Assembly (NCBI RefSeq): GCF_000377905.1
Contig: NZ_KB898883.1
Span: 1-32,424 of the forward strand
Direction: 5' to 3'
DNA from: Thioalkalivibrio sp. ALMg11
GTDB taxonomy: Bacteria > Pseudomonadota > Gammaproteobacteria > Ectothiorhodospirales > Ectothiorhodospiraceae
Length of the DNA: 32,424 nucleotides
The notes beneath the pieces are model-generated. The model worked only from the letters and a program-made list of their open reading frames with translations, made no database searches and was not told the origin of the DNA. Positions 85 to 32,424 of this stretch are shown piece by piece. Within the stretch, counting starts at the first letter, position 1. Every line of letters starts with the position of its first letter. Both the position numbers and the translations under genes were made by a program.

Positions 85-372
85 CTAGGGAAACACTGAT
101 TAATGAACACGCTCGCGCTCGAGTCGCTTTCGCGTGCGAACAAGGCGCGGTGACTGCCGTGCAGTCATTCTGCACAAGGGAACCGCAACGCCGTGCGCAC
201 GCGAAAGCGGCCGAGCCCCTGCATTCATCGGCTTGTGGGGTTGGCACCCCAGGTTCCCCGATCCTGCGTTGCGCCGATTGCGGGTAGAACCACTACCCGC
301 TGCACGACGCGCCTTGTCTCGGAAAACCTGGGGTGCCAACGCGAGCGTGTTCATTAATCAGTGTTTCCCTAG
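85..372 (+). mobile_element. Non-coding palindromic element, copy A (MITE-like)
   Basis: The ends are a perfect 31-bp inverted repeat (87-117 and 340-370), beginning AGGGAAACACTGATTAATG. CTAG stands on both sides (85-88 and 369-372), as a 4-bp target duplication would. Inside are two further inverted repeats side by side: 125-138 with 196-209 (14 bp perfect, longer with mismatches) and 241-255 with 325-339 (15 bp perfect), the second enclosing a small hairpin 280-287/293-300. A single strand would fold as a three-way junction. No convincing protein is encoded; the short ORFs are by-products of the palindromes. A near-identical inverted copy lies at 32187-32424 and a decayed copy at 12213-12490. 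It probably moves by a transposase supplied elsewhere. It has landed in or beside a higB toxin gene. Confidence 0.85.
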
Positions 373-3136: not shown

Positions 3137-3500
3137 CGTTGCTATCCACCACGAAGGCACGAAGGCGAGCCACGTCAAGGGCGTTTTTTGCTGAAAGGCA
3201 GGCATGACGGAAGAAAGGACTTATTGGTTGGCGTCGATCGCCCGGAACGCCGTCGCAGTGTGCAGTGACCCGCCCATTTCCGTCATCCCGGACACCGCGC
3301 AGCGGTGATCCGGGATCTCCCCACGGTGGTTTTCCTGCACCAGAGATCCCGGCTCTGCGCTGCGCTCCGGCCGGGATGACGGGCAACGGGGGTGGCGGCC
3401 CTGAAGGTCCTCGCGCCCACGGAACGCCATCCACAACCATTCTATTTCCTGTGACTCGCCCTGGCCCTTCTTCGTGCCTTCGTGCGCTTCGTGGTGAAAA
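3137..3500. repeat. Nested inverted repeats, no gene
   Basis: No credible gene lies in these 364 bases. The outer arms are CACCACGAAGGCACGAAGGC near 3147 and its imperfect complement at about 3470-3495 (CTTCGTGCCTTCGTGC...TTCGTGGTG). Inside lies a second palindrome, 3281-3381, bounded by CGTCATCCCGG and CCGGGATGACG with a further GATCCCGG-type inverted pair within it. Both motifs are of the kind found scattered in intergenic spaces of many bacteria. The region separates the converging DUF2069 and hda genes and may act as a bidirectional transcription stop or a REP-like repeat. Confidence 0.7.
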
Positions 3501-12212: not shown

Positions 12213-12490
12213 GGGGACGCACGGCCCCACATACACGTTCGCGCTCGAGTCGATTTTTCGTGCTGACACGGCGTGGTGCGCTCAGTGTAGCCGAGCTTTC
12301 TTCGCGAACCGCAACGCCGTCAGTGGGGAAATTGGCCGAACCCGGTCATTCAATGACTTGCGGGATTGATACCCCGCGTTCCCCGATCCAGCGTGGCGCA
12401 CCACGGGTGGAAACGGGCCAGCACAACCGCGTCCGGTCGCGCAAAACATGGGGCACCGACTCGAGCGGGTACAAGGGGCAGCGTCGCCCT
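12213..12490 (+). mobile_element. Decayed palindromic element, copy C
   Basis: This stretch aligns end to end with the element at 85-372 but is much diverged. Shared landmarks in the same order are ACACG(T/C)TCGCGCTCGAGTCG near 12232, AACCGCAACGCCGT near 12307, GTTCCCCGATCC near 12380, GCAAAACATGGGGCACC near 12441 and a terminal CCCT at 12490. The terminal repeats no longer match each other well, so it is an old, probably immobile copy. It fills the whole upstream region of the GGDEF gene and probably contains that gene's promoter. Its right end contains the stop codon of the DsrE-like reading frame. Confidence 0.75.
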
Positions 12491-14062: not shown

Positions 14063-14997
14063 ATCGAGTAGGAGGGGGAGTTGCCTCCCGCGTCCTCTCA
14101 CACCACCGGGCAAACGGATCCATACCTCGGCGGTTCTTGCCTCCCATTATTGGGCTGAGCTTCGTTCCACTGAATTCACCGCCTGTGTGCTGTGAGCGCC
14201 TCGACAGTCTTTGGGCTTCCGGCCCGCCATACCGTTATCGCGAGCCCTCCGGGGAGGCATCTGCTCATACGCATCAGAGATGCGATCAACTGTCCACTCG
14301 TGACAGGTTCAGCCCTTCAACTCTTGGTTAGAGAGCCTACTATGGCCTCTGCTGACTCCTGTTCGCCCATCCCGACACCTCACAGTGTCGGTAGCCTGCC
14401 GCAGGCGAGCAGGACTACCAGGGTAAGACGCGCGACCTTCCTCCCATCTACCCGCCGCATCTACTTCCACATCTCCTGGATAGCTATTGGGCTTCAACTT
14501 TCATGGCCCTCTCGCCCAGATGTGGCTGCCTCCTATGCGGTTCCTGTTCGTGGGGCCAGGAGTTTGCCTACAGCTTCCTTCAGATTCCGCCTCGCGGCGG
14601 ACACCCTTGCTGTTCAACTAGTGGGCCATGCGGTTAATAAGGTAACGCTCAGCCGTCGCACAAGCGTTGTGGGCAAGGCGCGCAAGCGCAGGACTGGCCT
14701 TCGCCCATTCAAGCGAGCGGAACGCAGCCCACGGCGCTTATGCGACGGCCCTTCGGGAGTCACTGTGCTGGCGCGACTCGGCGTTGCGTTTCTTGGCAAG
14801 GACGCTGCCATTCCCTGCGAAACGCGCCTTGATTCGCGCCAGCACAGTGGCTCTGAGCGTTACCTTATTAACCGCATGGCCCACTAGCGGTTCCCGCTAT
14901 CAGGGTCCATAGGGGACTCTCACCCCGAGTCATCCAGCCAGCCACCACGGCTAACCGGATAGCGTCTAAACGGCGCTACGCGCCATGCCTGGCGCAC
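14063..14997 (-). mobile_element. Group IIC intron without ORF, split by another element
   Basis: Read on the minus strand, it begins GTGCGCC-AGGCATGG at 14997. It continues with the conserved domain I blocks GGGGTGAGAGTCCCC, GCAAGGGTGTCCGCCGCGAG and GGAATCTGAAGGAAGC, then GGCAAAC, GAACAGGAACC and CAGGAGTCAGCAGAGGCCAT. It closes with a domain V candidate (14094-14136, ACCGCCG...CGGTGGTGTGAGAGG) and domain VI ending TACTCGAT at 14063. These match the published Oceanobacillus iheyensis group IIC intron by recall. Without the inserted element (14618-14887) about 670 bases remain, so the roughly 1.2-kb reverse transcriptase gene is missing. The domain V tip lacks an obvious GNRA loop, so splicing ability is doubtful. 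It lies just past the cold-shock gene terminator, the standard target of class C introns. Confidence 0.85.
14618..14887. mobile_element. Second palindromic element, inside the intron
   Basis: Perfect 31-bp inverted ends, TGGGCCATGCGGTTAATAAG onward (14622-14652) and 14853-14883, are flanked by CTAG on both sides (14618-14621 and 14884-14887). Removing the element and one CTAG rejoins the intron domain I sequence smoothly. Inside are two inverted repeats side by side: 14653-14674 with 14727-14748 (22-bp arms, a few mismatches) and 14761-14776 with 14834-14849 (16 bp perfect, extending further with mismatches). No protein is encoded. The sequence is unrelated to copy A, but length, repeat layout and CTAG flanks are the same. 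Confidence 0.88.
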
Positions 14998-15000
14998 CAC

Positions 15001-15027
15001 AAAAAAAGCCCCGCACTAGGCGGGGCT
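15001..15027 (-). terminator. Rho-independent terminator of the cold-shock gene
   Basis: On the minus strand AGCCCCGC pairs with GCGGGGCT around a five-base loop, and seven T follow (15007-15001). It lies 34 bases after the cold-shock stop codon. The group IIC intron begins three bases after the T-run. Confidence 0.92.
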
Positions 15028-15060
15028 CTCTCAACCTGGCGCTTGCGCGCCGGGGTTGTC

Positions 15061-15264
15061 TTACTGCGCTTCGACGTTCGCGGCGGCCGGGCCCTTCTGG
15101 CCCTGCTCGACGTCAAACGAGACGCTCTGGCCTTCGGCCAGCGACTTGAAGCCGCTACCCTGGATGGCGCTGTGATGGACGAAGACGTCCTTGGAGCCAT
15201 CAGACGGGGTAATAAAGCCAAAGCCTTTTTCGTCGCTAAACCACTTCACTGTACCTGTAGCCAT
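15061..15264 (-). CDS. Cold-shock protein (CspA family)
   Basis: A 67-residue single cold-shock domain that binds single-stranded RNA and DNA and melts RNA secondary structure. Both RNA-binding motifs are intact: RNP1 KGFGFI (about 13-18) and RNP2 VFVHH (about 27-31), with the MATGTVKWF start. The ending [12 protein letters not shown] is normal. An AGAGG about eight bases before the ATG serves as Shine-Dalgarno. It is monocistronic, with its own terminator and a long upstream region lower in GC than its surroundings, as expected for a gene regulated through its leader RNA. Confidence 0.96.
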
Positions 15265-15660
15265 TTCGGTTACCTCTGCTTGTTCATAATAGATTGGGTT
15301 TTCGAGGGGAGGAGAGACTGGAGGGCAACCGAACGACGATGGAACTTGATCGTGATTCTACGCGGCCCCAAACTAACCGGGACCGGAACTGCGAATCTTA
15401 ACGCCCCTTTCGGGGTGTCGCCTGGTGCTGCATGGAGCCTGTTACCGTTACCTCGAGGCTATTGTCCTCCCAAACCGCTCTCGATTGAAAGTGTTTTTTC
15501 GGATTTTCTTGATATGCGCCCGGAAAACCGTTTGTTATCCGCCGCTTGAATGGTCATTTAATTTGGGTTCAGGTGATTTTGGCCTGCCGAACACGGTCTC
15601 GACGCATCACCGACCGCGACCAAGGCGTTGCGCGGAGCCCCCACCCCACCCTTAATCGCA
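15265..15660 (-). promoter_or_regulatory. Long AT-richer leader/promoter region of the cold-shock gene
   Basis: About 390 bases without a gene, visibly lower in GC than the rest of the window. On the minus strand it holds a possible -10 (TAGAAT, 15360-15355) without a good -35, and a compact hairpin ACCCCGAAAGGGGC near 15401-15418 with a GAAA loop. CspA-type genes often carry long structured leaders that act as temperature sensors. I infer a similar role but cannot place the transcription start. Confidence 0.4.
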
Positions 15661-32119: not shown

Positions 32120-32186
32120 GGTGCGTATGTTCCTCCCGAGCCGGCCTGCCGCACGCAGTCGTGGCCGCCCATCCGTTTTTGATCAA

Positions 32187-32424
32187 GGGAAACACTGATT
32201 AATGTACACGCTCGCGTTGGCACCCCAGGTTTTCCGAGACCAGGCGCGTCGTGCAGCGGGTAGTGATTCTACCCGCAAGCGGCGCAACGCAGGATCGGGG
32301 AACCTGGGGTGCCAACCCCACAAGCTATTGAACGACGGGGCTCGGCCGCTTTGGCGTGCGCACGGCGTTGCGGCTCCCTTGTGCAGAATGACTGCACGGC
32401 AGTCACCGCGCCTTGTTCGCACGC
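32187..32424 (-). mobile_element. Palindromic element, copy B (runs off the window)
   Basis: This is the reverse complement of copy A (85-372), more than nine bases in ten identical by eye over about 238 bases, cut by the window end. The terminal repeat GGGAAACACTGATTAATG begins at 32187, followed by the internal arms TTGGCACCCCAGGTT and AACCTGGGGTGCCAA and the GCGGGTAG hairpin. Differences such as GTACACG for GAACACG show it is a separate copy. The left flank is CAAG rather than CTAG. It encodes nothing convincing. Confidence 0.88.

Follow-up and report, generated by a model that had tools for sequence, protein, structure and literature searches.

Short, non-autonomous mobile DNA elements with two inverted arms: a putative superfamily in Gammaproteobacteria

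How can two DNA elements that look unrelated in sequence be built on one plan, and why would that plan be kept? The question is raised by elements A and B in a 32,424-nucleotide stretch of Thioalkalivibrio sp. ALMg11 (contig NZ_KB898883.1), referred to as a whole as the window. In the original prediction they were taken for a case of convergent design, in which shape rather than sequence is recognised. Comparison of sequences is instead best explained if both belong to a single superfamily in Gammaproteobacteria, made up of short mobile DNA elements that are non-autonomous. Its members are marked by paired ends of about 30-35 nt, mostly CTAG or YTAR flanks, two inverted hairpin arms, each bearing an invariant internal-loop motif about 56 nt in from its end, commonly a CCCNNNGGG hairpin separating the arms, and variable stems that keep their pairing.

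The anatomy of both elements is as had been described, with perfect terminal repeats, two arms and CTAG at all four ends. Like MITEs, A and B are short and non-coding with terminal inverted repeats; the open frames that overlap them (101 and 231 aa) gave no Pfam match at E<=0.1. The repeat of B measures 31 bp when CTAG is left out. The features of the window, with matches to the covariance model R1, are as follows.

14618-14887: element B, whole, 270 bp
14618-14652 (+): left terminal repeat of B including CTAG, a perfect 35-bp inverted repeat of 14853-14887
14853-14887 (-): right terminal repeat of B including CTAG, pairing with 14618-14652
14657-14744 (+): arm 1 of B, R1 61.9 bits, E 2.7e-14
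14674-14680 and 14721-14725 (+): CAAGGCG and AACGC of B arm 1, letters checked
14749-14757 (no strand): junction of B, CCCTTCGGG, matching the form CCCNNN(N)GGG
14762-14848 (-): arm 2 of B, inverted, its motif strand matched by R1 at 83.2 bits, E 5.6e-20
14825-14831 (-): CAAGGCG of B arm 2, letters checked
85-372 (+): element A, 288 bp, its ends 85-117 and 340-372 forming a 33-bp perfect repeat including CTAG
124-210 (+) and 247-333 (-): arms 1 and 2 of A, R1 matches
141-147 (+) and 310-316 (-): motifs of A, letters checked
32186-32424 (-): second A copy, cut by the contig end, 95% identical to A over 239 bp
32223-32309 (+) and 32354-32424 (-): arms of the second copy, R1 matches
12233-12453 (+): decayed A copy, 76-83% identical to parts of A within 12233-12399
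12250-12335 (+): arm of the decayed copy, recognisable at R1 E 6.8e-7
12372-12453 (-): second arm of the decayed copy, at background level only (R1 E 0.14)

Folded as DNA, B forms a closing stem and two arms at -114.1 kcal/mol (z -15.3), and A reaches -116.3 kcal/mol (z -16.8); none of 200 shuffles of either was as good, in keeping with the folding that had been proposed. One arm of B is seen as an inner repeat (14757-14779/14831-14853, 91%) and the other is visible in the fold. The proposed three-way junction holds as far as the closing stem and two arms are concerned, but most elements (24 of the 27 two-arm elements defined below) have a CCCNNN(N)GGG hairpin at the junction, so that the shape is nearer to a four-way junction. 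The minimum-energy fold of B leaves this hairpin open.

Plain comparison of A with B confirmed the absence of visible identity, but CAAGGCG and AACGC stand at matching places in both. Each arm of A, of B, of a B cousin (B2) and of most inspected relatives contains CAAGGCG, followed after some 50 nt by AACGC(C/A)G, which gives an invariant internal-loop motif (CAAGGCG...AACGC.G) in both inverted hairpin arms; arm 2 deviates from the pattern in the relatives from genomes G043 and G044. In 128 of 132 full A copies on the 5' side and 124 of 132 on the 3' side, the motif starts at an offset of 56 nt from the end, and it does so in B. The 26 training arms of R1 were chosen by hand from 11 non-A elements and from a sampling of the A copies; arms that the motif pattern missed or doubled were excluded. 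The model finds all four arms of A and B at E 8e-22 to 3e-14, values of limited weight because these arms were among its training rows; its best E in the window outside the known copies is 0.006.

The search for further elements gave 38 two-arm candidates from 65 sources, and 27 were kept on requiring TA at both ends and at least 16 of 21 end matches. The motif offset is 55-57 nt in 24 of the 27 on the left and in 23 on the right, the two ends agree at 18-28 of 28 positions (median 27), and CTAG is found at both ends of 16. The CAAGGCG arm motif is absent from the inspected IS ends (IS630 ends, and IS5 ends by eye). Because motif, spacing and arm order are common to both, A and B are diverged homologues rather than products of convergence.

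Further analysis extended the family beyond the genus. In a sample drawn evenly from the class, with at most 16 candidates scored per genome and the search confined to the class, R1 matches at E<=1e-5 were found in 94 of 274 gammaproteobacterial genomes and 78 of 221 genera. Loci outside the genus that were absent from training reached E values down to 6e-19. When 29 of the class loci (L227-L255) were searched again, 25 had two inverted arms within 60 nt. Neither element has an Rfam match at gathering score or at E<=1, the best values being 1.3 for B and 3.8 for A, and no published description of this layout was found in literature search listings.

Evidence of movement is strongest for A. The genome of origin (3.04 Mb, 18 contigs) has at least 40 A-like places at E<=5e-45, 40 of 74 candidates having been scored, and a 22-base piece of the A arm has at least 109 matching stretches, all of them from Thioalkalivibrio among the matches listed. 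The collected loci hold 132 distinct full copies, 124 of them independent by their flanks. At 54 of the 70 independent insertions that have a TA at each end, the two 4-bp YTAR ends are identical (CTAG 39, TTAA 10, TTAG 3, CTAA 2); the other 16 have non-identical 4-mers and were taken as decayed. Duplication of TA was considered and dropped in favour of the 4-bp YTAR because of linkage between the inner and the outer end bases and the occurrence of the pairs TTAG..TTAG (3) and CTAA..CTAA (2).

A clean empty site is represented by locus L116, where a single CTAG stands opposite the filled site of L134, whose right flank reads CTAG and whose left flank reads CGTG. It is one of 17 cases in which the flanks of an element lie close together in another strain, five of them shown; one is clean by reading, but the others are divergent or contain remnants. 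In target-site duplication and an empty site A agrees with MITEs. In L134, opposite L158:2938-3241, the remnant is a short palindrome of both A tips, and in L170, opposite L022:1500-1817, it is a lone A end of about 20 bp; both resemble excision or deletion footprints. Lengths of A copies cluster near 272, 286, 301 and 316 bp, partly owing to inserts of about 15 nt, e.g. CCGTTTTCGTCAACAACGG, which could form a hairpin.

It had been proposed that a transposase acts in trans on YTAR targets of the IS5 type, and for A this fits. In congener G022 an IS5-family reading frame (PF01609, 3.8e-21; PF05598, 2.9e-20) belongs to an IS bounded by CTAG and GGAGACACTGATTTAA on one side and by TTAA and GGAAGCACTGATCAATG on the other; the gene sits between CTAG with GGAGACACTGATTTAATTCGC and TTAA with GGAAGCACTGATCAATGG, the end 4-mers being unlike. 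The ends of this IS, an autonomous partner with the same kind of ends, match those of an A copy at 15 and 17 of 21 positions. The IS was seen only in that one congener, where it adjoins an IS630 whose right end is CTAGTGTCCTTTAACATTAGTTCG. A second IS5-family IS, in G167, is flanked by CTAA on either side, and its ends read GGAA..CTGAT. From the end sequences and the target repeats of A we infer that an IS5-family DDE transposase acts in trans to move the A-type elements.

In congeners an IS630 of about 1.18 kb (PF13358, 4.3e-22) lies at CTAG and has GTGTCC-like tips; copies or fragments occur in G016, G022, G025, the genome of origin and a few others, the genome of origin having a 90-codon fragment only. 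PF13358 was matched in 7 of 21 searched element-bearing genomes, leaving 14 without it, and the genome of origin has no PF01609 match at E<=0.001, which implies that partners were lost, unassembled or different. To compare ends, 35 of the 38 two-arm candidates were tabulated (two at contig ends and one duplicate were dropped); ends in this set were chosen with a small bonus for the expected distance, those of the 27 elements without it. Against nine IS ends, six of the 35 score 13-18 of 21, a level reached by none of 500 shuffles: to IS5 ends an A copy in L004 (17) and L255 (16), to one IS630 group L234 (15), L238 (15) and L060 (13), and to another IS630 group L249 (18). Seven of the 35 have p 0.17-0.94 and many others are weak. 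B shares the CTAGTG tip with IS630, but L234, L238, L060 and L249 match IS630 better than B does, and the best score of a B end is 11 of 21, to the IS5 end (p 0.04, uncorrected for many tests). Its own partner is only weakly identified, and movement of the B group by IS630-group transposases, at TA or CTAG targets, is suggested less strongly than the IS5 assignment for A.

As a general partner IS630 was rejected, since PF13358 occurs in 7 of the 21 genomes only and the ends mostly disagree. One of 12 examined IS630 loci, L294, shares a CTAGTAC tip with the element of its genome; the others have other ends or none. A search of eight genomes for an autonomous element with the pattern CTAGTGTCCTGTC gave 54 matches in six genomes; the 30 fetched were further short elements, and tblastn of the IS630 protein found no match in these 30 loci. 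Recognition of shape and not sequence, as proposed, is not supported in view of the agreement of element ends with IS ends (A type and some others) and by the invariant core motif.

B has one full copy in its own genome and a DNA match in 9 of 47 genomes of the family. Its cousin B2, at about 187790-188060 of contig C2, is 71% identical to B in the interior only, with different ends, and adjoins an A copy with a CTAG common to both. Two-arm relatives of about 270 bp are found in G041, G043 and G044. The two-arm shape seen in most class loci seems not to be required, as five genomes (G021, G025, G029, G030 and G038, the last from a separate DNA search of congeners) hold 164-bp single-arm relatives with B-like ends. 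The CTAG at both ends of B is compatible with duplication of TA or of 4 bp, and a DNA search of the B region in 29 congeners found no empty site; it gave matches only to the cspA side and to B-like pieces, with none for the intron part. This part comprises group II intron domains D1-D4 at 14312-14601 on the - strand (Rfam, 136 and 71 bits), which stop 16 bases short of the left end of B, placing B near the 5' edge of a relic intron. At 15001-15382 on the - strand lies a cspA thermoregulator (Rfam, 82 bits).

The predicted co-variation of the arms was found. Of the 31 pairs predicted in the alignment of 26 arms of the A and B groups, 28 show double changes by which pairing is maintained. For a named structure of 29 pairs, 93.7% of cells pair, compared with 62.1% in shuffled alignments, and the covariation score is 0.795, compared with 0.207 shuffled and at most 0.158 with slid partners. 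Columns 16/73 form a conserved mismatch, paired in 6 of 26 arms. On a tree of the 132 A copies, both sides of terminal-repeat pairs change on 96 branches, as against 7-12 when partners are slid by 1-3 columns and a mean of 11.8 (maximum 37 in 1000) for random partners. Arm 2 of A has 30 double-change branches (10-15 slid) and arm 1 covaries weakly (14, slid 1-8); these are parsimony counts, and recombination between copies may distort the tree on which they were made. Of the 1819 cells in 63 de-duplicated arms, 1543 are Watson-Crick and 133 are G.T, in an alignment fitted to a covariance model that allows G.U.

Several explanations of these patterns were weighed. That ordinary IS5 and IS630 MITEs of separate origins merely converged on a similar shape is very improbable. 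In its favour, the types have unrelated ends, and hairpin cores are common among MITEs; against it stand the common motif letters, arm order, spacing and junction, the alignment of 26 arms of both groups with invariant columns, and the strong matches at untrained loci outside the genus, and it is further disfavoured by the two inverted arms in most class loci. An RNA-level function is a tentative alternative, in which the folded RNA would end or protect transcripts or bind an RNA protein, so that insertions become tolerable; a transcript of either strand would hold one arm in motif orientation. In that orientation the 63 arms have 133 G.T and 51 A.C cells, the A ends have 65 changes from Watson-Crick to G.T and 29 to A.C, and R1 favours the motif strand of B arm 2 (83 as against 18.0 bits), a difference that the motif letters alone would also give. 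However, columns 1-9 of the outer arm stem show no such bias (15 G.T, 19 A.C), A arm 2 has 56 G.T and 65 A.C events, part of the bias is confined to few columns of an alignment whose model itself allows G.U, and the best Rfam value of 1.3 is a chance match. The wobble bias being mixed, a role in RNA retains this modest probability.

Somewhat less likely again is neutral concerted evolution, in which template switching keeps the arms complementary and selection acts only on the two ends needed by the transposase. The A ends have 89 double changes beside 65 G.T, 29 A.C and 43 other single-sided or broken ones, as if the sides change together. Against this, internal loops and the 16/73 mismatch are conserved and uncorrected, motif spacing is constant across elements with unrelated ends, and pairing is kept in matches from many families of the class; the conserved mismatch in particular disfavours mere repair of inverted repeats. 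DNA that folds during transposition is the reading favoured by the extended end pairing and by the constant 56-nt spacing of the motif. The elements are probably MITE-like DNA mobilised in trans, with IS5-type or IS630-type ends and a common, structure-constrained core whose pairing is kept for folding.

Under this preferred explanation, an IS5-family DDE transposase would read the terminal 20 bp or so of A-type ends, while the ends (median 27 of 28 nt paired, exceeding the inspected ISs) and the arms would stay paired since the element must fold. The fold would most likely be a cruciform or single-stranded DNA during replication and would bring both ends together for synapsis; the fixed motif spacing suggests that a protein or a structure is read at each end. 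A bolder proposal, about as doubtful as the RNA function, makes the core a shape-plus-motif parasite module of several unrelated DDE transposases that swaps its ends for those of any available IS5 or IS630 group, keeps its architecture and motif spacing and has its folding read during transposition. The core tree needs at least four changes of end type (direction-adjusted alignment, weak tree). Repeated end exchange was not accepted as demonstrated by this tree, because IS5-type cores as one clade are compatible with it (p 0.55).

Known systems share parts of this organisation. REP-RAYT systems pair a Y1 transposase with short REP hairpins that bear a tetranucleotide tag, and in REPINs two inverted hairpins make one mobile unit, as the paired arms do here; unlike them, the present elements are far longer and have DDE-type target repeats and ends. 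With MITEs of the IS5 family (IS5 subgroup) A shares 4-bp YTAR repeats and ends like those of a congener IS5. However, the two ends of an element are complementary along some 30 nt (median 27 of 28, n=27), whereas those of the IS itself agree at 17 of 28 (15-22 in four ISs), the arm motif is absent from inspected IS ends, and the core is common to IS630-type elements. Correia elements, also derived from IS630, are TA-flanked. According to its description, RUP is probably moved by IS630-Spn1 and has TA targets (PMC2229807). Part of the B group shares with such MITEs the TA or CTAG target and IS630-like ends, but differs in its two inverted arms, the invariant 56-nt motif, the covarying stems and matches in 78 of the 221 genera sampled from the class. 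Coxiella QMITE1 and QMITE2 are described as long, strongly folding gammaproteobacterial MITEs, QMITE1 of about 400 bp and full-size QMITE2 with 7-9-bp direct repeats (PMC5896051). The present elements are likewise long and strongly folding and differ in size and repeats.

MITEs are usually viewed as IS remnants with arbitrary filling. In the present elements, matched in one third of the sampled class genomes, the interior is conserved and constrained by structure, and it is the ends that vary. It thereby becomes testable whether bacterial DDE transposition can depend on folded donor DNA. R1 provides a finding tool for such repeats, which tend to evade sequence searches because their stems change freely.

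Smaller observations concern the surroundings of the elements. The window also holds nested inverted repeats at 3150-3484 (3280-3319/3343-3382 and 3150-3179/3455-3484) with CACGAAGGCACGAAG, and a similar string flanks the A copy at L091. The right end of the contig falls inside an A copy and another A copy lies 84 bases from the left end; the ends of contigs C2, C8 and C9 are near A ends and C12 terminates in an IS630 fragment, which suggests that such repeats interrupt the assembly.
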